64,000 nt of DNA. It comes from Eucommia ulmoides (Eukaryota; Streptophyta; Magnoliopsida; Garryales; Eucommiaceae). Below are positions 3,213-58,847 of this stretch, in pieces (position 1 is the stretch's first letter; every line of letters begins with the position of its first letter). Location of the stretch: contig CM028326.1 of assembly GCA_016647705.1 (NCBI GenBank), positions 1,798,001 through 1,862,000 on the forward strand, written 5' to 3'. The notes beneath the pieces were generated by a model, which searched no databases, was not told where the DNA came from, and saw only the letters and a list, made by a program, of their open reading frames with translations. The position numbers and the translations under genes are program-made.

Positions 3213-3399
3213 CTGCAATTTTCAGCTCAGTTTTATTAAGTAGTATTAATTAATTAATTAATCAGAGATTAAAAAATTGACTAATTAATACAAGAAAAAA
3301 TTAGAGACAACCTCACTTTTACCATTAAAATTAAAATAGGTCACTACTTGTAAGTCCATATTAAGAAAATACCACCTATATATTTATTATTTAAGATAA

Positions 3400-4113
3400 A
3401 ATCAAATATATATTCTCTCACTATATCAATTACAACATAATAAATGGAAAGATGCGAATATTATTGCTCAGCAATAATGTTAAGAGCAACATAATGAATT
3501 AAGAGATGCAAATGTTGCTATATAACAATAATGTCAACATCAACATAATGAATAGGGATGTAAATGTTATTGTACAGTAAACAAATATTATATGTCAATT
3601 AGGTTTTTCTCTAAATTTAAATGTCTACATGGGTATAAGAATGAATTAGTAATGGGCCTTAAGGCCCATGATAAAATACCCTTTAATAAATAATTAAAGA
3701 TTTTTTAGGCTAACATCTATTTTTGCCAAATATATTAAAATGGGCCTCAAGGAACAAAGCCCATACTAACTAAAACCAATTGATTTATTTAAATTTTAAG
3801 AAAACACCATGAAGTAACTTTCATGAAATTTACTGTGCAACAACTTTCACCAAATACATATTCTCTCACTACATCAATAGCAGCATAATAAATAGAGGGA
3901 TGCAAATATCACTATCCAGTAACAATATTAATAGCAATATAATGAATGAAGAGATGTAAATGTTACTGTACAACAATAATATTAACAACAATATAATGAA
4001 TTAGGGAGACAATTACTATATGCCAAATGAATTTTTCTCTAAACTTAAATGACTAGATGGGTATAAGAATGAATTAATAATGAGCTTTAGGGTTCATTAT
4101 AAAATACCTTTTA
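3400..4113 (+). repeat. Diverged direct duplication, offset about 448 bp
   Basis: The blocks at about 3400-3690 and 3848-4113 share order and sequence: tattctctca, agatg(c/t)aaat, attaggt/aatga and tttttctctaaa, the string gggtataagaatgaatta, and the terminal ataaaatacc. Within each block there is a weaker internal repeat of about 65 bp (acaataatgtt, agcaacataatgaat). The spacer between them lacks the motif. These could be two decayed LTRs or a local duplication. Confidence 0.6.
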
Positions 4114-21752: not shown

Positions 21753-22587
21753 TAAAAGAACTTGTACATTTATTTATTTTTTTGTGTACCCATGAGTATC
21801 CCCCTATCCACACAAGGTGAAAGACTATAGTTCATTTGGAGTGCATGGTTACTCCTCTCAACAAGTATTTTTTCATAGGCTTAAACCCCTAACCTTGCAA
21901 AAGGCGCTCTAAACTTGTATATTTTTAATATAGCCGGGGGCTAAAACCCAAACTCTAAAAATTACAGATTGTCTTTGCCAAGAAATTCATGACATCTCGA
22001 TTCTAGATTACCAAGCCAAATCCACTATAATTGTTATAAAATATATATATATATATATATATATGATATTTTTAAGGTTGATAACGACAGTGGTACGACT
22101 TTCCAATTCCAAGTTGAACGACAACTCCAATTCTATTTCTAAGTCGTCCCACTTTAGACAGCCACAAAAACAAAAAAAAAAATCTTCAAAAGTAAAATCC
22201 CAAGAGACGCAAACAAAGAAGACTAATACCCATCATTTTCCAAGTCAAACAAAAGAACAAATTTATGTGATGCATTGGTGTTCATATTCTTACCACCAAT
22301 TGTCTGTGAAAATATTTTAAGCTTCAAGGAACCACACAATTGGTCCACAAAGTGGGATATTAAAAAAAAAAAAAAAAAAAAACTCGTTTTTTTCCCCATA
22401 GTCGATTGCATTCCAGAACCTCAGCCCCACCTACACCACTAGAAAATATCCATTTGTCAATTTATCCCCCTCAAAAAAAAAAAAAAAAAACAGCTGCCTG
22501 TTTAAAATGTAAAGAAATAAGAAGTGACAAAGTCAGATCACCTTTGAGACTAAGGCCACAGCCTGCATTTTCTCTGAGAACACTTTG
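21753..22587. other. Spacer and 5' flank of RLK-A
   Basis: It contains an (AT)n microsatellite at about 22040-22064 and poly-A tracts at 22361-22381 and 22475-22490. It presumably carries the RLK-A promoter and leader. No clear TATA box close to the ATG could be chosen. Confidence 0.5.
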
Positions 22588-27287
<4,700 letters not shown>

Positions 27288-28902: not shown

Positions 28903-31900
28903 CTATCGACCTTCAAGCGATGTCATAGTTACCTCATTTGAGGTAAGGCCTCTTCTCTTTCTCGCTGAAGAATCAGTTTCACTTGGGTACCTTTCCGTAA
29001 AAAATCCAGGTTGTTTAGGTTCTGGCAACAATAGGCCTTCCCCATCTAATATCATAAGAACAGATGACATTGTCGGCCTATCTTCTGGTCGTTGTTGCAC
29101 ACATAGAAGGCCAACGTGAATGCATCTTAGTGCTTCATTTCTTTTAAACTTCTCTGCAATTGCTGGATCTATTACTTCCAATGCCTTCCCTTCATCCCAC
29201 AGTTTCCATGCCTAAAATGTCAAACATATAAAAAATGAATGAGATAGAAAATAATTCAAGGAAAATCAAGACAATACCGAATCAGTTCCCATATTCTTAC
29301 ATGCCCTAAAAGGTTGAGATCATGTCCAGCATCATAAAATCCTCTATTTCTCCTGCCACTGACAATCTCTAGGACAAGAACCCCAAAGCTGAACACATCC
29401 GACTTCAATGAAAAGTTGCCATCAACAGCATATTCTGGAGACATGTAACCACTGTGTGCCATCTCAGAGCAATTAATACTAAGAAAAAAGTTACAAAACG
29501 TTGAAAGGTAGACTGTGTGTGGTGTGTGCGCGGGGAGGCACGTGCTTGTGTCTTTGAGAGGAGGGACTTATCGTGGCACTCACTATGTTCCAACCACCAC
29601 TTTTGTGTACTCCTCGGTTTGATCCCCAGACAAGGTTCTCGCCATGCCAAAATCTGAAATTTTGGGATTCATCTCCTTGTCCAGTAATACATTGGAGGCC
29701 TTCAGATCCCTGTGAATAATTCTCAACCTTGAATCTCGATGAAGATAAAGAACTCCCCGAGCAATGCCCACAATAATATTGAAGCGCAATTCCCATCCAA
29801 GTTGCTTGCGCTTCGCTTTATCTGTGCCAATGTGTCGAGTCATTCTAATAACCTCGTAAAATGTGCATAGTTTCTTGAACCAAATAACAAAACTGAGCAA
29901 TTTGGCTCGAAGGTAATATTGATTTGTTCGTGTGAAACAGCAAACGAGGAAAGGTGCACAAATGATGAGATAACCCACCAAATATAAAAGTATCCAGACT
30001 TCTGTTTGCCATGAACTCATAAATCAACATCCTTTCTTCTTGGTGAATGCAGCATCCAAGTAACCTAACAAGGTTCCGATGCTGAAGTTTGGAAATCAAA
30101 AGAACCTCATTTTTCAATTGGTTTACGCCTTGCCTAGACTCTTGTGAGAGCCTCTTAACTGCTATTTCTTGCCCTGTTGGTAGTGTACCCTGCATGAAAA
30201 GAATAGCTCCTCAAAATGATTGGATTTTCTTTATTCAATCATAAAGTAGTCTAGAAAAAATTAAAAAAAAAAATGGCCATAGTGACAGAACTCACCTTGT
30301 AAACAGGACCAAAGCCACCCTCTCCAATTTTGTTTGAAAGAGAGAAATGGTCGGTAGCAGCAGCAACTGTTGCCAAATCAAATAAAGGATATTCTTCTTC
30401 TTCATGATTTTCACGAAGGCAACACGTTTCGTTTAAGACAGCCCTGTTGCCTGCAAATTTCATTTATAAAGGGTCTAATTTTTTGTACTACAAGACATGG
30501 TAATTCAAATTTTATTTAGTTGTAAATGAATTCAAAATAACTTAATGCCTTGAACATTATAATAAAAACGATTTGCTACCAAAATATGAACCACTTGGAT
30601 ATAAGAGTCAAACTTCCACCTTGCTCATGAGCTGGTGGCTTTGTTGTCTTTAACCCCACGTAAATGTTTCATTAAGGTTATTTGGAGAATATTAAATTAA
30701 CTCTGACATTAAATTTAAGAAAAACTGAATAACAATCGAATAAAAGTAACACACTACTTACCTCCATTTGTCTTCTTCTTTATCCTCTTTTTCTTCTTGC
30801 TCCATATCACAAACCAGAGAATCAAACTCAAGAGAAATGCTGTGGATAATACTGATGAGGCTACTATTCTCCTCAACCCTCTCCTCTTCCTCTCACGAGA
30901 ATCTTCTATTGACTCTAATCACAGTGTTATGAAAACAATCAGAAGAACCATATACTTGATACAATGTGAACTATCCAATGCATCAATTTGTTCCAAGATC
31001 AAATTAAGACAGAACCATCTTGCTTATTAGAAGAATCTCAGGCAAGTAAGAAATCTATGAGGAGCCAATTTAGAGAAACTAATTTTTGAAAAGAAAAAAA
31101 CGTAAGAAAGAAGCTTACCAAATCATATAATAATAGATTAATAGTTATTACTAGCCACTAACTACATATAAAAATAAAGGGAAGGAGAAAATAAACGAAT
31201 GAAAAACAAGTAGAGAAGAGACTGAAATAAATTGTGAGTGCGATAAGCAAGGTTCACAGAGAAAAGGATGAAATGATGGCCTACTTATTGCTGAAGCAGA
31301 GAGCCGCACATGTAGATCTTGCCCATATCCGTTAATAGCTTTTCTAACGTCAACCAAATCACTTAACCAAATAAAACAGCCTTTTCCATCTCCACTTGCA
31401 TTGAATTCTGCATATCCACTGCAATTACAATTTTTTAAGCATAGAGTCTCACATTCTTTAGTGGTCATTCCCTCGTTAAACTGTAAACTCAATGTGTCTG
31501 GCAGTTTCATGGCACTATATTTCATAAATCCATCTTTTTCCCCACACTTCAGGGGCAATCTCCTGACACACCCACCAAACGTATCAAATACTTCCCAATC
31601 TTGAGGTGCTTCGGGAGTAAACCCTGTCATACACTTGCAATTTGGTGAAGAATTGATGTCACATATGCCAAAAGATCCACAGAGGTTGTAAGTATCACAG
31701 CGATCCTGTTGGATGGTGAATAGAATCACCCACTGAAGTTGATGGCTATTCCGTGTAAATTGCTGAACAAGTCCTGACTGAACTATAACAAGCCTTATAA
31801 GTATTGTAGGATCTGTTGTTTCATACACAAAATATGCTTCTTCCGAATTTGCAACAAACATTGGGCGGAATACTGAGTTTTCCATCAGAACAGGACCACC

Positions 31901-32584
31901 ACTGAATTGATTTACATACCAAAGCCCACTACGGTAGAGTTCACTTGATCCCATACGTAGAACAAGTTGAGGATGCCCATTACCTTCTACACTGTAAGAG
32001 AAATTTCCAGGTGAAGGATCATCCGAGCTTTTCCATGGAGTAAGTTTCCTATCTAAACCAGTCCTCAGGTCCCATCCCAGCTTCATGCCCGGTAACAATG
32101 TGTCGGTTGGATAATCAAAGCTCTGCCATATGTAGGTTTCTGAATTACTATTGCTTGCTTCCCTCAAAACAAGATTCCCGTTATCCAGTATTTGTGCAAC
32201 AGGACTATTAACTGGTGTTGAAGAATTCGTTGACCATATGATGCTGTTGTTTCTATTACCAAGAAGAAGATTTCCGTCTTTACCAAAACTCAAGGACCCA
32301 AAAAAACCTGTAATGGGGTTGTCTCTGTTTGCTACCCAAACAACTGTAAATGGAATGTTTTTGTACCAAATTCCCAGGTACCGGAACCTGGGACTCCCGG
32401 GGCTGAAAAAACCTAATTCAAATACTTGGCCAAATGAAACTAAGGTCTGGTTATCTCTGAGAAATTGGTTCAGTGTCAAAGTATCCGCAGCAAACAAGAT
32501 TTTTGACGAAAATGAGATCAAGTGTAGCAATATATAAGCCAGGGAAGGCCCTCCATTGACAACTCTCATCCTGTCCCTCTTCAT
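28903..32584 (-). CDS. RLK-B: G-type lectin S-receptor-like Ser/Thr protein kinase, seven exons, apparently intact
   Basis: Predicted exons in transcript order are 32584-31285, 30914-30762, 30450-30296, 30189-29979, 29821-29584, 29451-29301 and 29211-28903. They give 838 residues with GT-AG borders. The ATG at 32584 is preferred because it precedes a hydrophobic signal ([11 protein letters not shown]). A downstream ATG at 32572 is an alternative, and an upstream in-frame extension exists. Domains are B-lectin ([18 protein letters not shown]), S-locus glycoprotein, EGF-like ([11 protein letters not shown]), PAN ([10 protein letters not shown]), a membrane span in exon 2 with a Lys/Arg-rich stop-transfer, and the kinase. 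The kinase has [10 protein letters not shown], Lys548, HRD Asp645, DFG Asp663, and a tail with [10 protein letters not shown]. All catalytic residues are present. Exons 4-6 have exactly the lengths seen in RLK-A. It is convergent with RLK-A and starts a minus-strand series with RLK-C and RLK-D. Confidence 0.92.
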
Positions 32585-33898
32585 TAGAAGAGGATGAACA
32601 GGTGAATAATTCACATATAGTTCCTTTCTGCCTTTTTTTTTGTAAACCAATAAAGTCAACAAACGAAAGCTCCAAAAAAATTTAATTTCATCCACATCCG
32701 TTTAGCAGTTACATCACCATTATTCTATCCCCAGTCAAATGGATTATTGCGAGACTTAACAAAGTTTTCGGACCAGCAAGTCTTTTTAAACTTACCTGAA
32801 TGAGGGCTACACAAATATTATACAAATTAGATATCATATCAAAGTTACCCTTCTACACATCTCAAACACTACCACCTATGATGCCCAATCTGGGAAAATC
32901 TTCCATTTGAAGTATTCTTATCAGAAACGCCATAGTTGCATAATCATTGTCTATATATAAGATAACAATCACTGATTGACTTTGAGTTATTCAAATTTCA
33001 ACGAACATATAATTTAAACAAAATTAACATGTCATGGTTGACGATTGCAGCAACAAAAAAAAAAAAGGGGTAAAATTAGTACGACAAGCAGTTCAAATTA
33101 AGAGGTTAACAGTTTCGTGTTCTCCGGATAATAGTGGAAGAATTCAATCTGCGGTGTAAAAAGACAAGCAAATACAGTGATGCTAACTAAGAATTAAGCG
33201 TTAGGGATCTAAAGTATTCGTTTAATTGTTCTGCGATAGTCAGCTCAGGTTACACAAAAACACACTCGAGGAAGGGCGGAAGAGACCTAACTCCTTGGCT
33301 TGACTTTCAGCAGATTTGTTGAGCCCGCTGCACCACCGGCGCAATGCGACGGCGACGGGAACTGCTTTCTCCGACTTACATGGTCCCGAGGAGGGAATAG
33401 ACCATGGTTTCCCTCTAAAAATTGGTTTCGAAGTTTCATTTTTATAAACAGTTCACAAAAATAAAATTTAAAACGATCTAAGTCACCCGCTATATAATTT
33501 TTTTGAGAAATTTAAGATTAGTGTTAAAAATTTAATAATTACCATATGTATACAAAAGTTACTATAGTTTTTTATATAAAAATATTATAATAATTAAATT
33601 ATTATAGACTTTTAAAAAAATTACAGTAATTATCCTCGATTCCACTAGCCGCCACCACTCCGCTAACCAGTGACCACCACCACCACGTCAACCACCATGC
33701 ATTAAAAAACAAAAAATGTTGTAACGAAAAGTATTTCCAAAACAGAAATACAATTCCCAACGATAATCATCACATTAAATACAAATTTTATATATAGTTT
33801 ATGTTTGGCGAGGGGCATTTCTACATAGATATTTGCACCAACTAGAAGTCACCACGTGGCACACAGGGCATGTGTCACCATAAGTGACCAGCTACTAC
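32585..33898. other. 5' flank of RLK-B and spacer
   Basis: It should contain the RLK-B promoter. A CpG-rich island at about 33290-33420 reads on the minus strand like a short exon followed by a good donor (GGGACCAT, then GTAAGTCGG), but I cannot assign it to a gene. The block at 33640-33720 (ccaccatgcatt, aaatgttgtaac) resembles 10230-10290, so it is a dispersed repeat. Confidence 0.4.
33891..33898 (+). repeat. hAT target-site duplication, left copy
   Basis: GCTACTAC is repeated exactly at 38689-38696. Confidence 0.9.
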
Positions 33899-34892: not shown

Positions 34893-37746
34893 ATGGCTAG
34901 TGTTTCTCCAATCAATTTGGATGGTGACGACGATCAGACACCGGTGACCAAAAAAAGTAAAACAACATCTAAAGTTTGGGATTGGTTTACAAAATTACCA
35001 TCGGATTCGAATGATCAGGTGAAAGCCAAATGCCTACATTGTCTTAGTACTTTCCGCTAAAAGTACTAATGGTACTTTCCATTTGAGACGTCACATGAAT
35101 GAATATTGTGTTAAAAGGTCGAATCATGATATTAAGAATTATACAATTCAATGTGAATCGAAATATGATGGAAGTAAGACTTTAAGAAATTATCAATATG
35201 ATCTTGTTGAACTTCGTAAAGAGATTGCAAAAATGATTGTGGTGGATGAGCGTCCGTTTAGAGTAGTTGAAATTCTAGGTTTTAGAAGTGTAATGTCTAG
35301 AGCACGTCATGAATTTAGGATGATGAGTAGATCTACAATTAAGAGAGATATTATGGCCATGTACACTATAGAAAGAGAAAAGGTGATTCTAGAATTAAGT
35401 GCATGTCCAAGTAGCATTTGTTTTACGTCTGATACATGGTCATCTCTTACTGATGATCATTATATTTGTGTGACTACTCATTTTATTAATAAATCAATGG
35501 AAATTGTATAAAATGATCATATGTTTTAAGCTTATACCTCCTCCATATGATACTTTGTCAATTGAGGATGAGTTGACCTCGTGTATGTTCCGATGGAATA
35601 TTGAGAATAAAGTTTTTAGCATTACTTTGGATAACTTGTCAATAAATGATTGTGTGGCTAGTAGAATTCGAGCACGGCTTTCCTCTAAAAATATTCTTCT
35701 TTGTAATGGTGCATTTTTTCATGTATGTTGTTTCGTACACATTCTTAATTTGATAGTACAAGCTGGGTTTAATTCGATAAGTAATATTATTGAAAAACTT
35801 TGACTTGGAGTCAAATATGTGAAACTTTCACATATTATGAGAAATAAGTTTTTTACTCTTGCTACAAGTTTAAACATGGATATTAGGAAGAAATTGTGTT
35901 TTGATTGCCTGACAAGGTGAAATGTTATTTATCACATGCTTGAAGTTGCTCTTCACAATAAAGATGCATTTTTATATTAGGGTAATATCATTGACCTCCT
36001 TTGTCATTTTGTACTATACCAGATATCTCCCTTGTCATTTTGTAAATACCGGAGATCTCCCATGTCTTTTTCTCAAATACTATTTACCTCCCTTATTGAT
36101 TAAAAAATAATATTTTTTTTTATTATAATACCAATTTTACCCTTCACTAGTTAAAAAATAATTAAATAATAAAAATTTAAAATACATAAATAACCCTTTA
36201 ATTTATATATATTCATCACCATCTCCTACCACCGCACCCACAGCCACCACTACCTCCTACTGTCGCCACCACTTACCACACGCTGCCACCTCCCACCACT
36301 GCCGCCCACCACCACCTGCCACCACCAATATTTTGATGTAAAAAGACATAAATGCCCTTACAAAAATATATTTTTATTCTTTTATTTAAAAAATAATAAT
36401 TTCATTAACATCCTCTCTATTTTTTAGTTACTCTTTATAACCATTAAAGTGTAATTTAAGACCAAGACAAAATTTAGGGGTAAAAGTACCGATTTTCTTC
36501 TCTTCTTGATTTTTTTATTTTATTTTTTTCATTTTGTTAAAAAAAAAGAGTTAAAAAAAATATTATTTTTTAATGAAAATGTTAGTGTAAAAAGTAAAGG
36601 ATGGTGGCATTGGATGGCGGTGGGAGGTGGTGGTGGGTGGCGGCAGTGGGTGGTGGCAGAGGTGGCTGTGGATGGTGGGAATTGGGTGGTGGCGGTGAAA
36701 GTTGGGTGGTGGTGAGATGTAAATATAATTATTTAAAAAGTTAAGGGTAAAGAATATAATTTTAAAAATATAGGGGTGCTAATGAATTTTTTTAAAAATA
36801 ACCTAAGGACAATTTTGTCCAAAGGGAGGTAAGTGGTGTTTGAGAAAAAGACAGGAGAAGTCTCGGGTATTTGCAAAATGACAAGGGAGATATTTAGTAT
36901 AATGCAAAATGACAGGGGAGGTCAATGACATATATCTTTTTTATATTTCGATGACCGTGATAGAAAATTCAAGTATAATTTGTTAGAGGATGAATGGGAG
37001 CAAGTACGTGTTTTGTGCAACTTCTTGAAGGTGTTTTATGAAGTAACATGTACCTTTCTGGAATGAAATATCCAACTTCAAATTTGTATTTTAAAGGTGT
37101 GTGGAGAGTTCACATTAAATTGTTTGATGTTTTGAAAGGGCCTCCTAATTTTTTATTCGACATGGTGCATGAAATGCATTTGAAGTTTAGCAAATATTGG
37201 TCGAATTATAGTTTAATCTTGTCTTGGGGTGCAATTTTAGATCCAAGGTATAAGCTTAAATTTCTTGAATATTGTTATACCAAAATATATGGTGGAGAAG
37301 TGGAACAATACATAAGCACCACTATTGTCACCCTTTATTCTTTGTTTGGCGAGTATATGAAAAAATCGAGCTCTTCTATTAGTTTTGGGTCTTCTGGCAT
37401 GTCAATGAGCGAGTCTAATCTTGTGGAAAGAAGGGGTGATGAATTTGAAGATTATGCAAGATTTGAAGGTATTAGGTCTCGCCAACAAGTTGAGAAATTT
37501 CAACTAGACTTGTACTTAGAAGAACCTAATCTTGCTGTGAATAGTGAGATTGAAATCTTGAACTATTGGTGTTCTTCTTCATTAAAGTATCTTGATTTGG
37601 CAAGAATGGCTCGGGATGTTTTGACAATTCTTGTATTTTCTGTTGCTTTTGAGAGAGCTTTTAGTACAGGCCGTCGAGTCATTAGCCCTTATCGATGCTT
37701 GTTGAAGTCTAAAACCATACAAGCTCTAATTTGTTTGCAAGATTGA
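34893..37746 (+). pseudogene. hAT transposase pseudogene (BED zinc finger, RICESLEEPER-type)
   Basis: The ATG at 34893 starts an N-terminus with a BED finger: VWDWF, then the KCLHC cysteine pair, then HLRRHMNEYC. A +1/-1 shift near 35055 separates the two finger halves. The middle region contains VVDERPFRVVE, FTSDTWSSLTD and YICVTTHF. A second shift lies near 35496. It continues with IPPPYDTLSIEDE and the LDNLSINDC block. Nonsense codons follow near 35802 and 35920 (TGA in place of Trp in CLTRWN), and a 960-bp MITE interrupts it after KDAFLY. The 3' part reads DEWEQVRVLCNFLKVF, then ILDPRYKLKF, and ends in the hAT-C dimerisation region (MARDVLTILV, ERAFSTGRRVISPYR). Catalytic function is lost. 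About 650-700 residues is the usual family length, consistent with the remnant. Confidence 0.93.
35979..36938. mobile_element. Mutator-like MITE with long terminal inverted repeats, nested in the hAT transposase
   Basis: Long inverted arms of about 120 bp run inward from the left (ATCATTGACCTCC, TGTCATTTTG, GATCTCCC, CTTTTTCTCAAA, TTTACCTCCCTT) and match the complement at 36820-36930. The flanks TTTTATATT (35970-35978 and 36939-36947) are an exact 9-bp duplication, typical of Mutator-like elements. The centre has ccaccac and gtggtgg low-complexity tracts that are complementary to each other, so almost the whole element could fold back. Confidence 0.92.
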
Positions 37747-39150: not shown

Positions 39151-40545
39151 TATACAAATCTATTGAAATAATATGGACATTAAATTTATCAATAATACTA
39201 AAATATTAAATTTACAAAAATTAAATTAAAGAAATATTATACAAAAAATATATAATGCATAAAAATTATAGAAATAATATATGCACAACAAATTTAATAA
39301 TAATATTAAAACGTTAAATGTATAAAATTTAAATTAAAAAAAAAATAATATAAAAGAAAAAATATAATACATGAAAATTATGGACATTAAATTTGTAAAA
39401 ATTATAAAAATAATATATTAACATTAAATTTAGTAATAATAGTAAAACATTAAATTTATAGATATTAAATTAAAAATAAAAATATAAAAGAGAAAATATA
39501 ATATATAAAAATTATAGATATTTTATTTATGAAAATTATAGAAATAATATATGAACATTAAATTTAGTAATAATACAAAAAATATTAAATTTATAAAAAA
39601 AAAAAAAATTAAAAAAATAACACAAAAGAGGAAATTTAATATAAAAAACTTATGAATACTATATTTATGAAAATTATAGAAATAATATATGGATATGAAA
39701 GTTAGTAATAATACTAAATCATAAAATTTACAAAAATTAAACTAAAGAAATAATATAAAAGAAGAAACAGAATACACACAAATTTTGGACATTAAATTTA
39801 TGAAATCATAAAAATAATATGTGCACATTAAATTTATTAATAATACTGAAACATTAAATTTATAAAAAATTGAATTTAAAAAAATAATATAAAAAATAAA
39901 ATATAATATACGAAAATTATGGATATTAAATTTACGAAAACTATATAAATAATATATGGATATTAAACTTAATAATAATACAAAAATATTAAATTTAAAG
40001 ATACTAAATTAGATAAATAATATAAAAGATAAAATATAATGTACGGAAATTATGGACATTAAATTTATGAAATCATAAAATTAATATATGCACATTAAAT
40101 TTAGTAATAATGCTGAGATATTAAATTTATTAAAATTAAATTAGAAAAATAATATAAAAGAGAAAATATATCATAACGTAATATAATATACAAAAATTAT
40201 TTCTATTTAATTTTAAAAATTATAAAAACAATATATCAAACATTAAACTTAGCAATGATGCTTAGATATTAAATTTATAAAAAATTAAATTAAAAAAATA
40301 ATATAAAAGAAAAAATATAGTATACCTAATATATCAACATTAAATTTATAAAAATTATAAAAATAATATATGGATATTAAATTTATAAAAATTAAATTAT
40401 AAAATAATATAAAAACAAAAATACAATACTAAAAAATTATGAAAAATAAATTTATGAAAATTTTATCGATATTAAATTTAGTTATAATGCAAAAATATTA
40501 ATTTTATAGAAATTAATTTAAAAAATAATAATAAATTAGGTACAA
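39151..40545. repeat. AT-rich tandem satellite, unit about 133-147 bp, roughly ten copies
   Basis: A recurring series attatggacattaaattt, then aataatatatg.acattaaa, then tagtaataatactaaaatatt, then ataatataaaagagaaaatat repeats along 1.4 kb. Starts of the attatgga element near 39783, 39916 and 40049 give a unit of about 133 bp, with the next spacing near 147 bp. Copies are diverged and carry small indels. No protein is encoded. Confidence 0.8.
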
Positions 40546-40692: not shown

Positions 40693-42284
40693 TTTTTTTT
40701 TTTGGGTAATTAATTTTTTAGTCATCTATAGAGGCCCAATAGAGAAAAAAGACCTTCTGACATGAACAATTAAGTTTTCAGACCCTACCAAATTTTTAGA
40801 AAAAAATTCTTCATTTTGACCCTCCTTGTTAACATTTATTTACAAGTCTGCCATTTTGTCATTATGCAACAAGACAAATTTAGACAACAAAATGTGTTAA
40901 CGTTAACGTAACTTGTTCAAATAAATGTCACTTACCTTTATTACAATATTATATTGGGATTGACGTTAACGTTGTTAAATCCTTTTTTTTTTTTTTTTTG
41001 TCAACGCATCATCTCCTCCATCTGTCTGTTTTGTGCAATACGTTAACATTAATGCATTTTTTTTGTGTTTCATATTATCGTCTCTTTCATTATTTATTTT
41101 GTGTGCATTAACGTTAACGCATTTTAGTGAGTTTGCGTTAACGTTAATTCACATTTTGTTGTCTCTCTTTATGTTAAACGTTAATGCATTTAATGTTGTC
41201 CATAAAATGTGTGAAATAAAAATCAGTCACAACACTAACGTTAATGTATACACACAAGTAATACTCATTGCATATAGAGTAATTTTGTATTTATTAAAAT
41301 AATTATGCATTTATTACAAATAGTGCATGTTTCGTCTTGTGTACATTAACGTTAACGCAAGTAAATTAAATGTACTGAATTATAAGTACGTTAACGTTAA
41401 CGTAATTAGTTATGTGGTTAAGTTATAATTGTGTTAACATTAACGCAAATAAATTAAATGGACTGAATTGTAAACACGTTAACGTTAACGCATATTGGGT
41501 TGGAGTGTAATTGCGTTAACATTAACGTAATAAAATTATATGTGCTGGTTTATAATTGTGGTAACATTAACACAATTAATTATTGGGGGTTGAAATTGTA
41601 ATTGCATTAACGTTAATGCAAGTAATTTTAATAGTTTAGATTATACATACGTTAACGTTAACGCAAATTATTATTGGGCTGGAGTGTAATTACGCTAACA
41701 TTAACGCAAGTAAATTACATATATTGGTTTGTAATTGTGTTAACGTTAACACAATTAGTTATTGAATTTGGGATTGTAATTGTATTAACGTTAATGTAAT
41801 TAAATTACATGTGTGGGTTGTAATTGCGTTAACGTTAACGCAATTAGTTATTGGGTTGAGGGTGTAATTGCGTTAACGTTAATGTAACTAAATTACATAT
41901 GCTGGGTTGTGATTGCGTTAACGTTAATGTAACTAAATTACATGTGCTGGTTTATGATTGCGTTAACGCCATCATCTCACAAATCTGTCTGTTTTTGTGC
42001 CTTACGTTAACGTTACTCAAGAACTAGATAGAGAAAGTGGAGGGAGGTCTGGATCTGACTGGTGGTCGGCGGTGGTTGTCGGATCTGGCTAGTGGTGGCT
42101 GATGGTTGTCCGAAACGAAGATCAACACTGCCAACAATACCTGCCGAATCAAACATCAACACCGCCGAAGAACACCACCAAAACGAACAACATTCATCAC
42201 TACCAAAAATTCATCACTACCAAAAATCAACAACATTCATCACTACTAAAAATCAGAAATAAACATATGTATATATATGGAGAG

Positions 42285-42329
<45 letters not shown>

Positions 42330-43152
42330 AAAGTGGAGGGAGGTCCGGATCCGAGAGAAATATATATATATATATATATACACAGAGAAAGTGGAGGAGG
42401 TCCGGATCCGCCGCCGTGCTTCGCGTTTTCCCTCACCATCGCCGCCGTCGAAGCTCTGGAAAACCACCATCCAAAATTTCAGATCTGGAAAGCCATCGCC
42501 GCCGTTCGCCACCACACACACAGCCCCGACAAACCCCCCGACGAAAAACCAAATCTGGGTTTCCAGATCTGAAAAACCAGATCTGGAAACTCTAGATCTA
42601 ATTTTTCAAATCTGGAAACCCACCCACCACCATCGGAGAACGCCACGCGAACGCCACCGCTGGTGACGACAGCGTTCGGTGGAGAACCGACGCTGCCGCA
42701 ATCGACCACCGACCTCTTCGGAGTTCGGAGATCCCGTCGACGCCCACCCACTGGTTCAAGCCTTCCTCCTTCCCCGACCAGGGTTCCGACTGCAGTTCTT
42801 ACGCCGATCTCCGGACCTTCAGAGCTCCATTCCGGCCGTTCACCTCCACTGATTTCAGAGAGAGAGAGAGAGAGAGAACAGTGGTCCGATTTTAGATAGA
42901 GAGAGTGACCTTACTGATAATATGTTAGATAATAAAATGTGAAGGAGGATCATAGAGTACATCAACATAAAATTGTTAACGTAATGAGAGAGAGGGGTAT
43001 ATGTGTCTTTTTACGTTCTATTTTGTTTAATCTAAGGATTAAAAACTTAATTGATTGTACTGTTTGGTCTGAATCCTAACCAAACACATAAAAAGGTCTT
43101 TTTTCTTAATGGGGACTATATAATAAAAAACTCTTTTTTTTTTTTTGTATAG
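40693..43152. mobile_element. Non-autonomous Mutator-like element, 2.46 kb, carrying a palindrome array
   Basis: It is bounded by an exact 10-bp direct repeat TGATTAGACA (9 bp plus a shared T), fitting the Mutator-like target size. The terminal zones are partly inverted copies: left ttttttagtc, then agagaaaaaagacctt, then caattaagtttt; right, reversed, tatatagtcccc, then aagaaaaaagacctt, then caattaagtttt. The interior holds the GTTAACGTTAAC array (40.89-42.02 kb) and then a GC-rich, microsatellite-studded part (42.03-42.90 kb). The latter has a duplicated ggaggtccggatccg block and repeated AGATCTGGAAA words. No transposase is present. Confidence 0.75.
40890..42020. repeat. Palindrome array, GTTAACGTTAAC, regular 45-bp period over 41340-41975
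   Basis: The AACGTT/AACATT centre of the palindrome starts at 41348, 41393, 41436, 41481, 41518, 41563, 41609, 41654, 41697, 41742, 41787, 41831, 41875, 41920 and 41965. Intervals are 43-46 bp except one of 37. Two spacer types largely alternate (an aaattaaatgtactg type and an attagttattgggttg type), so a higher-order unit of about 90 bp exists. Less regular copies lie outside, from 40895 to 42010. The motif catctgtctgtttt-tgtgc flanks the array on both sides (about 41018 and 41984). Confidence 0.93.
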
Positions 43153-49356: not shown

Positions 49357-52259
49357 GTGCACATATATTGGATTGACTAAAATAATTATAAAACTTACTA
49401 TGTTCCGATTACTCTTTTTGTTTTTGCACAAACTTGGTCCCCTTCAAATATTCTAGCTAGCCCGAAATCAGAAATTTTTGGGATCATATCACCGTCTAGT
49501 AGAACATTGCTTGCTTTTAGATCCTTGTGAATAATTCTTAATCTTGAATCTTGGTGAAGATAGAGTAGTCCTCTATCAATCCCCATGATTATATCAAACC
49601 GTTTTCTCCATGCCAATAAATTGCTTCTCTTGTCATCTAACACACCATTATGGAAAGTTTGAATGAAAAACATATAAGTAAGCAAATTATTCTCGATTAA
49701 ATTAGACAAAAAAGATTGTACCGAATATGTAGTAATCCAAGCTTTTATTGGACATGTACTCGTAGATTAATATCCTTTCTTCTCCTTGAATGCAACATCC
49801 CAACATCCTCACTAGATTCTTATGTTGGAACTTAGAAATCGAAGCTATCTCATTCTTGAACTCTTGCAGGCCTTGTCGTGAATTTTTTGACAACCTCTTC
49901 ACCGCTATTTCTTGTTTCATCGATAATATTCCCTGCATATATCAATATTTCTGTGTCTTATGGGTTTTGACACTTTGCACCCCTGAAGTTTGACCATTGT
50001 TTCACTTTGTCCTTGTAGTTTCAATTTGAACACATGACACCTTGAAGTTTAGTGATAACCCCACTTCAGTCCAAATCAATAGATACATTACAATTTTGGA
50101 TGGCAAACATTTATCGTCCATGCACCTAACTATTTTTTATGACGACCTTAAGGACATTTCCATCCTTTTTCTTTTTCCTTTTGCAAATGTTCTATAAAAA
50201 CGACCTGCATATGTGTGTGTGTGTGGATTCTGAGTATTTGGGTTGAAAAGAGAACGGGAGGAGGGAAAGAAGGAGGCTGAAAATACTCATAAAGTCCCAG
50301 TTATATGTGCAGCAAGTGACTATTTTCTGTCCAAAATTGTAATGGGTATAATTATTTGGACTGTAGTGGGATGATTAGGAAACTTTAAGTTTTCTTATTT
50401 TATTTATTTATTTATTATTTTATTATATGTTTAAATTAAAACCATGGGGACCAATGTGAGATTTTGGTCAAACTTCAGGGATACGAAGTGTCAAAACCCC
50501 ATTGTCTTAAATCTATAATTGTAGAAGAAATTTTATTCACCGGGATATATATATATATATACGTGCGAATTTTACCTTGTAAACAAGACCGAAACCACCT
50601 TCTCCAATCATGTTTGCCGAAGAGAAGTTGTTTGTTGCAGAAGCAACAGTTGCCAAATCAAACAAAGGCAATTCTAGGTGCTCCTTCTTCTTTTTCTCTT
50701 CTGCATAATTTACTAAATTCTTAAATTTAAATCAAATTGTAAGACTTCTAATATAAAAGAAGAATTTAAATCAAAGTTACCTCTTCTCTTTGATCTTATC
50801 TTCATAAAAACACACCCGGAAATCACGCCCAAAATTATCATTCCTGGAACAATGGAAACTAATACAATTTTCCAAACTTTTCTGTTCTTGTGGACTGAAA
50901 TATTGATATCTAGAAGACAAAAAGATCGAAAAAGAAAATGTGGATTAATCTCTTTTTTCATAATGTTGAATAAAGCTCGAAAATTATATTAAAAAAAAAA
51001 TTTGTACCTAATTCAGAAGCCGGTAAGCGTATATAGATATCCTGATCACTGCCTTCAACTCTATACTCCCTGATATCAACCAAATCTCCAAACCATATCA
51101 AACAGCCACGGCCTCCATCAGTAACATAAGCATTTGCATATGCAGTGCAAGAACAGTTTTTCAAGCACTCGGCTCGACATTCACCTAGGTTCATGCTAGT
51201 GTTCACCCAAAAACTTAAAAGATCAGGCAACTTCACACTTTCAACTTTAAGGAAACCTTCTTCACTATTACAACTCAAGTTCTCTTTTCTTACGCAACCA
51301 CTGGACCATTCAAGAACATCCCATTCTGTCTGTGATTTCGGGGTGAACCCGTGCAAGCACTGGCACATCAGTGATTCATTGATTTTGCAAATGCTGTTAG
51401 CATTACAACGGGCATAATTGTTGCAGGGGCCGTTTGGTTCTGTATCAATTAGATCCCATTTTTGGTTTTTTACATCCATTACGTACCGGAGGAGCAAACC
51501 CGACGGGCTCAAGGTCAGTCTGGTGAGGACCGAGTTGTTGTAGGACTGTGAAATAGAAATCAGATGATTGCCGTTAAACTCGAATTTCCGTATGAAAGTC
51601 GGACTTTTCTGTTGAGGCATGCCGCTGAATCGTACCCCGTTCCACGTCCCACTTCGAAACAGTATTTTGAATTCAGAGCCAACGACGGTTTGAGCCAGCC
51701 CGTGATTTTTGATTCTGTAACTGAAATTCCCGACCGATGGATCATCGTCGGTTCGCCACGAGGTTAAGTACGAGGTTTCTGTTACCTTCATACTCGGAAG
51801 CCGCGTTTGGCAAGGGAAATCAAAGCTCTGCCAAACACGGGTTTCATAGTCAGTACTTGTGTCAAGAACGACGAAGTTTCCAGTGTCCAAAACCTTACCA
51901 ACTGGGTTTACGGCAATTCTTGATGAATTTGATTGCCAAATAGCGAAAGGGGTTCCATTGAAAAGACCCAGTTCGCCATTTTCGCTGATTGTTAAGGTTC
52001 CTCCGGAACCAGAAATCGGGTCGTTTCTGTTGGCGACCCAAACAACTGCATCTGGGGTTGCTCTGAACCATATGCAGAGGTACCTATTTTTGGAGGTTCC
52101 GGGAGAGAAAAATCCAAGCGCGAATATTCTGTTTGGGGAAAACAGAGTATCGCCATCAACTATGGATTTTTTTGGAGTGACTGTGTCTTGGGATACGGAG
52201 AATTTGAAGAAGACTGACGAATACAACAAAGCATAGAAAAAAAGGTTTTTTGCGATCAT
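48467..52259 (-). CDS. RLK-D: G-type lectin S-receptor-like kinase, seven exons, complete, with HKD in place of HRD
   Basis: Predicted exons in transcript order are 52259-51008, 50909-50781, 50700-50576, 49932-49722, 49636-49399, 49268-49118 and 48772-48467. All have GT-AG borders and join to 803 residues. The ATG at 52259 precedes a hydrophobic signal ([12 protein letters not shown]). Domains are B-lectin ([23 protein letters not shown]), S-locus glycoprotein ([14 protein letters not shown]), EGF-like ([11 protein letters not shown]), PAN ([14 protein letters not shown]), and a membrane span in exon 2 ([18 protein letters not shown]). The kinase has [10 protein letters not shown], Lys514, Asp611 and DFG Asp629. 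The residue before catalytic Asp611 is Lys, not Arg, and the usual GIARG before it reads GIDRG. The catalytic residues themselves are kept, so it may be active with altered activation control, or in early decay. Intron 3 contains a 540-bp MITE and intron 5 an (AT)n(AG)n microsatellite. Confidence 0.9.
49305..49353. repeat. (AT)n(AG)n compound microsatellite in RLK-D intron 5
   Basis: About 9 AT units are followed by about 14 AG units, between exons 5 and 6 of RLK-D. Confidence 0.95.
49961..50501. mobile_element. MITE in RLK-D intron 3
   Basis: The left end is TGGGTTTTGACACTTTGCAC and continues CCCTGAAGTTTGACCA. The right end is the inverse, running TGGTCAAACTTCAGGG to GTGTCAAAACCCCA. The arms are about 38 bp with few mismatches. 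The flanks gtgtctta (49953-49960) and ttgtctta (50502-50509) differ by one base, suggesting an 8-9 bp target duplication. It is non-coding. Confidence 0.85.
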
Positions 52260-53420
52260 TCCTTGAAGCAAAACTTGTCGATATGTTTTGTTGCATCGTT
52301 GAAAGAATCAGGTGTCTGAAAGTAATGGTGAGGCAAGTAAATGGACAATGAAGTCGCGGTTTTAGACGTGTGGAAGCTGGCATTCAGCCATTCGGTGCCT
52401 GCTTTTCTCGTTCAGGTGAAGTAAATGACCCTTAGTCATGGTGATGGTGGTGATCATGGATGTGTTTTCTTGTGTGGGTCATGCATGACGCGGTCTTCAC
52501 CATGCATGGTTTTCCCCGTTAGTTCATGTCAAAGACAAGTTCAGAATTTAAATGATTCTTATTTTAAATATAGATATTTTTGCTAGTACTAAAAATTATT
52601 TAACCTAATTCTTATTTTACTTTTTAAATTATTATCACATATATTCCTTTTTTTTTTTTTCATTTTTTACAATTTCTTTCCTCCTTTGGCGAGCAACCAA
52701 TGTCGGTGTTGGCGCTGGTGTTGTGCCGAATTTTATCCTCTCTTTTTTATTCCCAAACTCTAACCCCCAACCCTGTTGGATCTATGCAAAACCGACGGAT
52801 TGGGGGTGGGGGCTTAGGAGAGAGAAGAAAAAGAAGGAAGAGAGAAGAGGAAGAAAACCAGATGGTTGGTGCCAGCGGGGGCAGGTTGTGGGGGGTTGTT
52901 GGCGGGGGGAGGGATGGGAGTGTAGAAGGTTGGTTAGTGGAAAAATGGTAAAGCTAAAAGATTAATTTTGAAATATTTTGATTTTTTTTTTTAAACGGGA
53001 TGCACATTTATCAAAACGAGCTGTACATATAGAATTATTCTTATATTATTAGAGGGGAATAGAGATCCTCGTGTGGCATCATATTGATTCTTTATTTTAC
53101 AAGTATAAAAAGATATTGAATAAAAAAAAATAACCAGTTAAATTCAAATGTCAATTTGAAGGGCATAGAATATACTTTAATTTAACCATATTAGAAGGGT
53201 AGGTGGTGGAATCTACGCTTTGTGCGTACTCTGGTTACTTTGTTTTGATTATTCATGTTTTAGGCATTGATTCTTCTCATAGAATTAGGAGACCTTTTAG
53301 ATTTGAGGCTATGTGGTTATCTCATCTTAATTTCCTAACAATTCTTTAAAATTCGTGGTCCTCTAACTAAACTAATTCACTTGATAAAATTGATCAGTTT
53401 ATGGAGGATATGATGGTTTT
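52260..53420. other. 5' flank of RLK-D and dispersed non-coding repeat
   Basis: The first few hundred bases upstream of 52259 should contain the RLK-D promoter. The segment 52560-53045 resembles 15230-15580 at both ends and in its pyrimidine-rich part, and contains a G-rich purine block (52800-52950) whose frames are low complexity. Confidence 0.4.
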
Positions 53421-57000: not shown

Positions 57001-58847
57001 TCAATCAAATTGATCATTCATCTATTCTATATAATTTGCAAGTTTTCGAATTCCTATTTTGTTGATGAAATTTTTTTTAGATTAATTTGTGTATTCACCT
57101 GCTCAAAGGGGGTTATTGTACAGATTAATTTAATTGCTGAGCATATAACTTAATTTTTTCAATTTGGAACGTTTATTTGTCAATTATTGAGGTTATTTTA
57201 TCAAAGTGATTTAACTAATATAATTTGCAAGTTTTCGAGTTCTTATTTTGTTGATGATTTTTTTTTTAGATTAATTTGTGCATTCACCTACCTAAAGGGG
57301 GTTATTGTGCAGATTAATTTAATTGTTGGGCAATATAACTTAATTTTTCCAATTTGGAACGTTTACTTGTCAATTATTGAGGTTATTTTAGTAAACCGAT
57401 TTAACTAATATAATTTGCAAGTTTTTGAGTTCCTATTTTGTTGATGGAAAAAATTTCAGATTAATTTGTACATTCATCTGTCCAAATGGGGTTATTGTGC
57501 AGATTGATTTAATTGCATGAGGATATTATGTGAAATAAATGATTTGATAAATTTGTTTGTCCAAAGGGGATGAATTTTGAAAGATTATTTGTTTCATTAT
57601 ATTTTGAAGAAAATATATGGATTTGAAAGTCAATCTACTCAAATGGGATGAATTTTTAAATTTTTCTTATTTTGTTGATTCTCGTGATTAAAAAATAATT
57701 GTTTATTATAGACTCTGCCCAAATGGGAGTTTATGATAATACAATTGATTCTTATATTGTATTGTCTATACTTAATTGAGCATTTTGCCCCATTACCCAT
57801 AATTGATCTAGTTGCAATTTTTTGTGAAAACAATTTCTTTTTGTTGTGAACAATAATAACGCTACATTAAAATTCTAAATTGATTTCTTGATTTAATGAG
57901 AATCTTTGTAATCTTCTTTATTTCGATGATTGTGTCGTGTAAGCATTGATCACTATTGTTATAAAATTTTTATTATTTTATTGATCTTCATACTTAAAGA
58001 ATAATTGTTTATTATAAATTATGCCCAAATGAGAGTTTATAAAGATGCAATTAATTCTTATATTGTGTCGCTTATACTTATTTGAGCATTTTGATTCTTC
58101 GATTTAATGAGAGTTTTCTTATATTTTTCCTTAATTATATGATACATTGTGACCACTATTGTTACGCATTTTGCAAAATTGAATTCTATTTGATGATTAT
58201 CATTATTGCACATTATATTATTGCGTATTATATTATTTGAATCGATTATACTAAACCAAGGTTTAAGACCCATAGAATTCAAGGAACATGTTGTGAATAT
58301 GAGTGTCATTGAGTCTTTTGATTCTTTGGTTTAGTAGGAGCTTTTGTATTTCCCTTTATTTCGATGATTACGTTGTGACCACTATTGCTATGCATTTTGT
58401 AAAATTGAATTTTATTTGATGATCATCATTATTGCAAATTATATTGTCGCATATCATATTATTTGAATTGGTTATACAATATGGTATCTTAAGATATTGT
58501 GCCTTAAGAATTACAGTTGTATACTTTTGGCTGTCACTAATCACTATTTTGAGATCTCGTGATGTATTGTTAGTGACAGATGACTTGTTAAAGTCAAACA
58601 ATTTCATATTGTTGAGAAATTGCTGAAGTTTCATTTTGTTGAGAAACTGCAATTAGCAATTTCATTTGTTGCGAAATTACAACAATTTCATTTTGTTGAG
58701 AAACTGCAATTACATTTTCATTTTGTTGAGAAATTGTAATGAGGACCGATAAGAACAATACATATTGATAATGATCACATGTTGGCATTGGTTTCTTACT
58801 ACACTACTGGACTTACGATCCATGTCGATATGATTATAAGTATTTGT
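57001..58847 (+). mobile_element. Non-coding internal region of a degraded LTR retroelement (left part)
   Basis: Three tandem units of about 190 bp begin with taatataatttgcaagttt at about 57026, 57216 and 57406. Each contains attcacctg.c(c/t)aaagggggttattgt. Similar boxes (cccaaatgggag, gcccaaatgagag, caaatgggatgaat) continue to 58040. From 58600 a short repeat cattttgttgagaaactgcaa recurs four or five times. No gag or pol is present. After the insertion at 58848-61426 the same element seems to resume and to end in a polypurine tract and LTR. Confidence 0.55.
58839..58847 (+). repeat. Target-site duplication of the 2.58-kb insertion, left copy
   Basis: AGTATTTGT is repeated exactly at 61427-61435. 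Confidence 0.8.

Follow-up and report, generated by a model that had tools for sequence, protein, structure and literature searches.

The window, a stretch of 64,000 nucleotides from the Eucommia ulmoides genome (GCA_016647705.1, contig CM028326.1, positions 1,798,001 to 1,862,000), contains a region in which a palindromic sequence returns at almost constant intervals. This raises the question of what the palindromes are, which element carries them, and whether a protein, the structure of the DNA, or tandem duplication explains their presence.

Structure of the array

The array and the cores around it comprise the following features, none of which has an assigned strand. Coordinates are those of the window.

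41343..41930: regular array of 14 palindromic cores (the 16-bp GCGTTAACGTTAACGC and its C>T and G>A variants), mean spacing 44 bp
41822..41845: perfect 24-bp palindrome AATTGCGTTAACGTTAACGCAATT, the cleanest unit
41960..41969: half-site GCGTTAACGC
40896..40907: irregularly placed core outside the array
40959..41148: four irregularly placed cores, starting at 40959, 41042, 41107, and 41137
42006..42017: irregularly placed core to the right of the array

Within 41340-41975, 14 sites have at most two mismatches from GTTAACGTTAAC, and 500 dinucleotide shuffles average 0.29 such sites and never exceed 2. The initial annotation counted fifteen cores. Fourteen of these are full cores, far above the shuffles, and the fifteenth is the half-site. 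Six additional cores lie in the same element outside the array (starts 40896, 40959, 41042, 41107, 41137, and 42006). The regular spacing with a single 37-bp interval is confirmed, as the successive distances are 45, 43, 45, 37, 45, 46, 45, 43, 45, 45, 44, 44, and 45 bp (range 37-46 bp, mean 44.0 bp). Two spacer types alternate by eye across units 1-13, and Tandem Repeats Finder gives periods of 45, 88, 133, and 178 at the array. The described alternation with a unit of about 90 bp is therefore correct for units 1-13, but unit 14 has the spacer type of unit 13.

The palindromes were also said to lie about four helical turns apart and to face the same side of the helix. This does not agree with the measured spacing. 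With 10.5 bp per turn, a 45-bp step corresponds to 4.29 turns, and the orientations of the 14 cores are spread around the helix (resultant 0.20). The near-constant spacing produces a constant step (resultant 0.80) of about 100 degrees, and not one face. For the nearest spacings in three long relatives of the element, described below, the phasing p-value is 0.019 with repeated spacings and 0.958 after removal of duplicates. With the resultant of 0.20 and this p-value of 0.958, helical phasing is not supported.

The variation among the 14 cores is mostly of one kind: set against the 16-bp consensus they show 29 differences, and 27 of these are C>T or G>A. Of the eight A/T columns, seven are invariant across all 14 cores. 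The array contains 28 CpG, with an observed/expected ratio of 2.28 against 0.76 for the window. The core variation resembles cytosine deamination, and this pattern accounts for the apparently symmetric substitutions that had been read as conserved dyad symmetry. Covariation of mirrored core positions, which had been suggested as a check, is absent from 144 sites of the three long relatives (lowest permutation p 0.31), a set in which the limit of two mismatches restricts double changes inside the 12-mer and not at the outer three pairs.

The same absence bears on the proposal that the palindromes form a cruciform or hairpin with a structural or replication role. Folding of the array as single-strand DNA is stronger than that of 20 shuffles (z -7.5), but any series of palindromes yields such a z, and together with the missing covariation this makes a cruciform barely plausible.

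The transposon that carries the array

The array lies inside a transposable element with the following features.

40704..43133, plus strand: non-autonomous MULE-type element of 2,430 bp, with the ends GGGTAATTAATTTTTTAGTC and ...ATATAATAAAAAACTC
40695..40703, no strand: left target site duplication of nine T, low-complexity here and unambiguous in the copies L010, L013, and L018
43134..43142, no strand: right target site duplication of nine T
42353..42905, no strand: GC-richer interior, common to related copies

The end sequences are also given as GGGTAATTAATTTTTTAGTC and GACTATATAATAAAAAACTC, with the pattern GGG...CTC. Similarity to the window begins at or before 40707 in 19 of 20 fetched copies and extends to 43110 or beyond in 17 of the 20. 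Outside these bounds, no similarity among the 20 fetched copies passes the filter, except for T runs. The flanks of 29 elements mostly have 9-bp duplications, which places the window element among the MULE-type elements. The duplication matches at 8 or 9 of 9 bases in 24 of the 29 elements (at 9 in 19) and at 7 of 9 in two, and three have no end pair; the count permits small left-end shifts, and many of the target sites are A/T-rich. CACTA elements have CACTA ends and 3-bp target site duplications. The GGG...CTC ends and the 9-bp duplication do not fit the CACTA (En/Spm) group.

The putative terminal inverted repeats are imperfect, with about 20 recognisable bases common to both ends. Alignment of the left end with the inverted right end scores 33 in the window element against a shuffle maximum of 33, and 6 against 20 in a long element. 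Aligned with the ends of a long element, those of the window element score 109 and 54, against shuffle maxima of 36 and 16. The window element is tied to relatives coding for transposase by its ends and its motif, rather than by mobilisation data. The element is non-autonomous, as it measures 2.43 kb and has no transposase match. The open reading frame at 42102-42572 has no Pfam match at or above the cut-off, and no captured host gene fragment is recognised in the window copy.

The window also contains an A/T-rich tandem array with a period of about 134 bp at 39262-40392, which stops about 300 bp to the left of the MULE. A 190-bp tandem repeat (2.6 copies, 87% matches) lies at 57029-57526. The C-terminal part of a hAT transposase, comprising hAT-like RNase-H and dimerisation domains, lies at 37048-37746 on the plus strand. 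Open reading frames at 22585-23886 (plus), 31151-32695 (minus), and 50958-52271 (minus) each have B_lectin, S_locus_glycop, and PAN_2 domains. By these domains, the three are ectodomains of S-locus-type receptor-like kinases and probably form a gene cluster, and they identify the stretch as plant DNA.

Related copies in the genome

One genome of 946 Mb in 391 contigs was searched. The array search gives at least 89 matches, with 40 of 557 candidates scored, and the left-end search scored 40 of 1,049, so that the copy number is a lower bound. The exact GCGTTAACGTTAACGC occurs at 1,433 places genome-wide and its reversed control at 0. Exact 12-mer pairs placed 25-40 bp apart number 564 in the genome and 0 in the control.

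The motif is present in all 29 copies read, and it is absent from 48 kb of host DNA flanking 20 copies. The form of the array varies. Regularly spaced cores form runs of 17 in L029 and 20 in L031 but of only 3 in L034-L036, and the array matches of L033-L036 are in inverted orientation with respect to the left end. The initial annotation had named absent or irregular arrays in other copies as evidence against its reading. Runs of only 3 regular cores occur in 3 of the 29 copies, and the motif itself is kept. Together with the inverted matches, they speak against a fixed architecture and not against the motif. The relative L033 also contains a UDP-glycosyltransferase fragment at 3269-3673, which is open over 135 codons (UDPGT 54.8 bits, cut-off 19.5).

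Full-length relatives

Starting from motif clusters that extend over about 9 kb of contig C1, three long elements of 10,775, 11,168, and 10,623 bp were identified, all with perfect 9-bp target site duplications. Their transposase matches PF10551 (42.7 bits, cut-off 27.6), PF04434 (SWIM; 38.4), and PF03108 (50.2), the last being a MuDR-type DNA-binding domain. Each long element also has a second gene on the opposite strand, convergent to the transposase, with four predicted exons and GT-AG introns. The protein of this gene resembles the plant mobile domain (PMD; E 8.5e-6, 25.6 bits, below the cut-off of 34.9) and, less strongly, DUF1985 (E 4.9e-4, 20.5 bits, below the cut-off of 35.1). DUF287 is not found in the 479 aa scanned, and one shorter translation of exon 2 has no Pfam match. 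The C-terminal half is charged and probably coiled-coil, with weak leucine-zipper matches. Among solved structures, the PMD-like region has no convincing relative (best E 0.0028). The PMD-like gene carries stops or frameshifts in all three long copies read.

The three long elements contain 48, 54, and 43 motifs; contact with exons, as predicted from open reading frames, splice signals, and homology, is seen for 0, 1, and 0 of them. Thus 144 of 145 motifs lie outside predicted exons, although exons make up 41-43% of the length. In the first long element, both genes have motifs upstream, and further motifs occupy introns 1 and 3 of the PMD-like gene, the transposase intron, and the DNA between the genes. 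The site model built from the 144 motifs is near-symmetric across about 18 bp, TGCGTTAACGTTAACGCA. A protein-binding array and a transposase-binding subterminal array had been among the initial proposals. An array of protein sites within a single transposon superfamily is supported, but a strictly subterminal position is not, as introns and intergenic DNA are occupied by the motif across about 10 kb.

Divergence of core and spacer

The dyad symmetry of the cores was initially described as seemingly better kept than the spacers. At A/T sites the core is indeed better kept, as the 13 array units differ from each other there by 0.037, against 0.428 in the spacer when both spacer types are mixed, but the contrast over all sites is small. 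The 12-fold A/T contrast of the mixed types was set aside for the comparison inside each type, where it is 5-7-fold. Core and spacer then differ by 0.036 and 0.219 in one type (7 units) and by 0.042 and 0.275 in the other (6 units). Over all sites the corresponding values are 0.208 and 0.259, and 0.146 and 0.305. The small contrast is due to the core G/C sites, which change often. As the array units are related to each other, these comparisons are a contrast and not a formal test.

Changes after insertion give a second time scale. Singletons among 21 copies give A/T rates of 0.0048 (core) and 0.0058 (spacer), and rates of 0.0128 and 0.0103 over all sites. The 5-7-fold A/T contrast between units, set beside similar rates after insertion, indicates that the A/T positions of the core do not mutate slowly by nature. 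By this comparison of copies, it looks as if these positions have been kept by selection in transposing lineages.

These values also bear on the array as a neutral minisatellite, a functionless tandem duplication carried along by a successful transposon. The tandem structure, the higher-order periods, and the variable unit number are products expected of slippage, and with all sites included the divergence of the core is only modestly below that of the spacer. In contrast, the core A/T sites are 5-7 times less diverged within a spacer type while post-insertion rates are alike, and the motif also occurs outside the tandem array and at scattered positions in the long elements, where predicted exons are almost free of it. 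A neutral origin is thus very improbable.

A second motif in a diverged clade

Searches with exon 2 of the PMD-like gene scored the best 150 of 2,090 candidates, which are 58-100% identical. On contig C1, among the matches listed for the palindromic motif (motif A), exact motif A lies near 4 of 5 gene hits at or above 71% identity and near 0 of 2 at 62%. The copy L045, at 63%, has repeated GTGTATGTTAACTCA-like units (motif B) in the 791 bp upstream of exon 2 (C17:31809100-31809890), in an intron that holds motif A in the long elements, and the exact motif-A 12-mer is absent there. In these units, ATGTTAAC occurs 7 times forward and 0 times reversed, with a shuffle maximum of 1. The corresponding 791 bp of L046, a 65% copy, have one motif-A-like site and no repeated motif.

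Exact motif B occurs at 65 places in the genome and its control at 1. Among the gene hits below 64% identity, 9 of 30 have it in the 2 kb upstream, against 0 of 120 above that level (Fisher p 1.7e-7, with copies that are not independent and taken from the best 150 of 2,090). In all 20 of 20 cases it is on the strand of the gene. Exact motif B is absent from the other 21 of the 30 diverged hits, and 45 of the 65 places are away from any gene hit listed among the best 150 of 2,090 candidates. Because the copies share ancestry, motif A against motif B amounts to a single comparison of two clades. Unlike motif A, motif B is no long palindrome, which again argues against a cruciform.

The change of motif also concerns host DNA-binding proteins, whose sites a transposon might use in an enhancer- or insulator-like manner for its expression or placement. 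The dyad of 18-24 bp and the symmetric site model fit a dimeric factor of any origin, and motifs lie upstream of both genes. However, the 48 kb of host flanks contain none, the motifs are kept in gene-less copies, and the motif differs between clades of one transposon group in one genome, where a shared host factor predicts otherwise. A host factor is therefore improbable.

Candidate binding factors

The array is best explained, with moderate confidence from the combined analysis, as a target for a sequence-specific factor encoded by the transposon, probably the PMD-like protein acting in the manner of VANC, that is, by anti-silencing in trans. We infer all three parts of this reading, namely the PMD-like protein as the binder, its dimerisation, and demethylation as the effect. 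The gene-less MULE would carry a multivalent target, and full-length relatives would supply the sequence-specific protein in trans. The likeliest binder would be the product of their opposite-strand second gene, which has a PMD/DUF1985-like N-terminal half. The dyad in the motif suggests that this protein binds as a dimer. It would gather on the dense repeated motifs in noncoding transposon DNA and take off silencing marks there, and their removal would allow autonomous and gene-less copies to stay mobile. In this way, a dense array would let a gene-less element make use of the factor of its full-length relatives.

The transposase is the other candidate from within the transposon. The array would then be a loading platform, on which the MULE transposase binds repeated sites and boosts transposition of gene-less copies, comparable to the Spm TnpA sites and the Ac subterminal repeats. 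The transposase of the long elements has the MuDR-type DNA-binding domain PF03108, and the motif is present in all 29 copies read. Moreover, according to PMC10398659, MURA of maize MuDR also reduces methylation of non-autonomous copies. In contrast, the motifs run across introns and intergenic DNA of elements of about 10 kb and are not restricted to their ends, and the orientation and length of the array vary between copies. A weaker point is that the PMD-like exon diverges slightly faster than the catalytic part of the transposase. Among 26 pairs matched by eye, which are not all possible pairs and exclude the query element, the transposase has the higher similarity in 21 and the lower in 3, with 2 ties and a mean difference of 3.2 points. 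Because transposase and PMD-like identities drop in parallel, the binder cannot be told from co-divergence. A transposase platform is rather unlikely overall, and the PMD-like protein is ranked above the transposase as the binder.

Comparison with known systems

Spm/En and Ac elements have many sites for transposon proteins inside the element, near its ends. They differ from the present elements in that they belong to other superfamilies, and the sites here run through introns. TnpA of Spm has been linked to demethylation (PMC10398659).

The closest resemblance is to the VANDAL/VANC systems of Arabidopsis (VANDAL21-VANC21 and VANDAL6-VANC6). These are MULEs with a second gene that has a DUF1985-related region, as described in PMC5735166. 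VANC21 and VANC6 recognise short motifs that recur as dense tandem repeats in noncoding DNA of the VANDAL family to which each belongs, and methylation is then lost (PMC5735166 and PMC10398659). The elements described here likewise have dense tandem motifs in noncoding DNA, and the motif differs by family in PMC5735166 and in one clade contrast here. Motif orientation is uniform in VANDAL/VANC; motif B is on the strand of the gene in all cases, and orientation is meaningless for the palindromic motif A. Unlike the directional motifs of 8-9 bp given for VANDAL/VANC, the motif here is a long CpG-bearing dyad. The match to PMD is stronger than that to DUF1985, both being sub-threshold, and the putative terminal repeats are short and imperfect; VANDALs have degenerate repeats or none. 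DUF287 is shown for several VANCs besides DUF1985 in PMC5735166. The present elements are likened to VANC/VANDAL and are not filed as members, because the DUF1985 match lies below the cut-off.

PMD genes occur in many plant MULE clades, often antisense, as PMC6446971 reports. The present elements resemble those with a PMD gene (MUDR, MUDRAVI2, MDR, and MULE-Monocots) in the SWIM-finger transposase, the 9-bp target site duplication, and the antisense PMD-like gene. They differ in their noncoding motif arrays, which the accessible text of PMC6446971 does not mention for those clades. The gene-less window element and the relative L033, with its UDP-glycosyltransferase fragment, are also similar to Pack-MULE or Pack-TYPE elements. 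The Pack-TYPE element PAC of Arabidopsis Tsu-0 has direct repeats that its authors consider possible VANC6 targets (PMC12312487). Unlike PAC as presented there, the window copy has a long regular series of palindromes and no recognised host gene fragment.

Anti-silencing by PMD proteins of MULEs was offered as speculation by Ikeda et al. 2017 (PMC5418596). The literature searched, which consists mostly of papers outside subscription, gives no link between PMD-gene MULEs and motif arrays, and GTTAACGTTAAC is listed there for three unrelated papers. Sasaki et al. 2022 (EMBO J 41:e110070) reportedly describe fast co-evolution, helical periodicity, and several VANC systems, and given that work the prior art may be closer than shown here.

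Significance

A mirror-symmetric target sequence is unusual within the known anti-silencing strategy. The comparison of core and spacer on two time scales provides a simple test, using sequence only, for selected protein sites in transposon arrays. One genome combines a PMD-like gene, a motif nearly missing from predicted exons, dense arrays in gene-less copies, and a second gene clade with a second motif, and this combination makes the speculation on PMD anti-silencing directly testable. More tentatively, and with somewhat less than even confidence, the PMD proteins of many angiosperm MULE clades may be general sequence-specific anti-silencing factors. In the present lineage, the factor would act as a dimer on a long CpG-bearing dyad, and gene-less relatives would build regular palindrome arrays that attract it, profiting from this factor or competing for it with the autonomous element.
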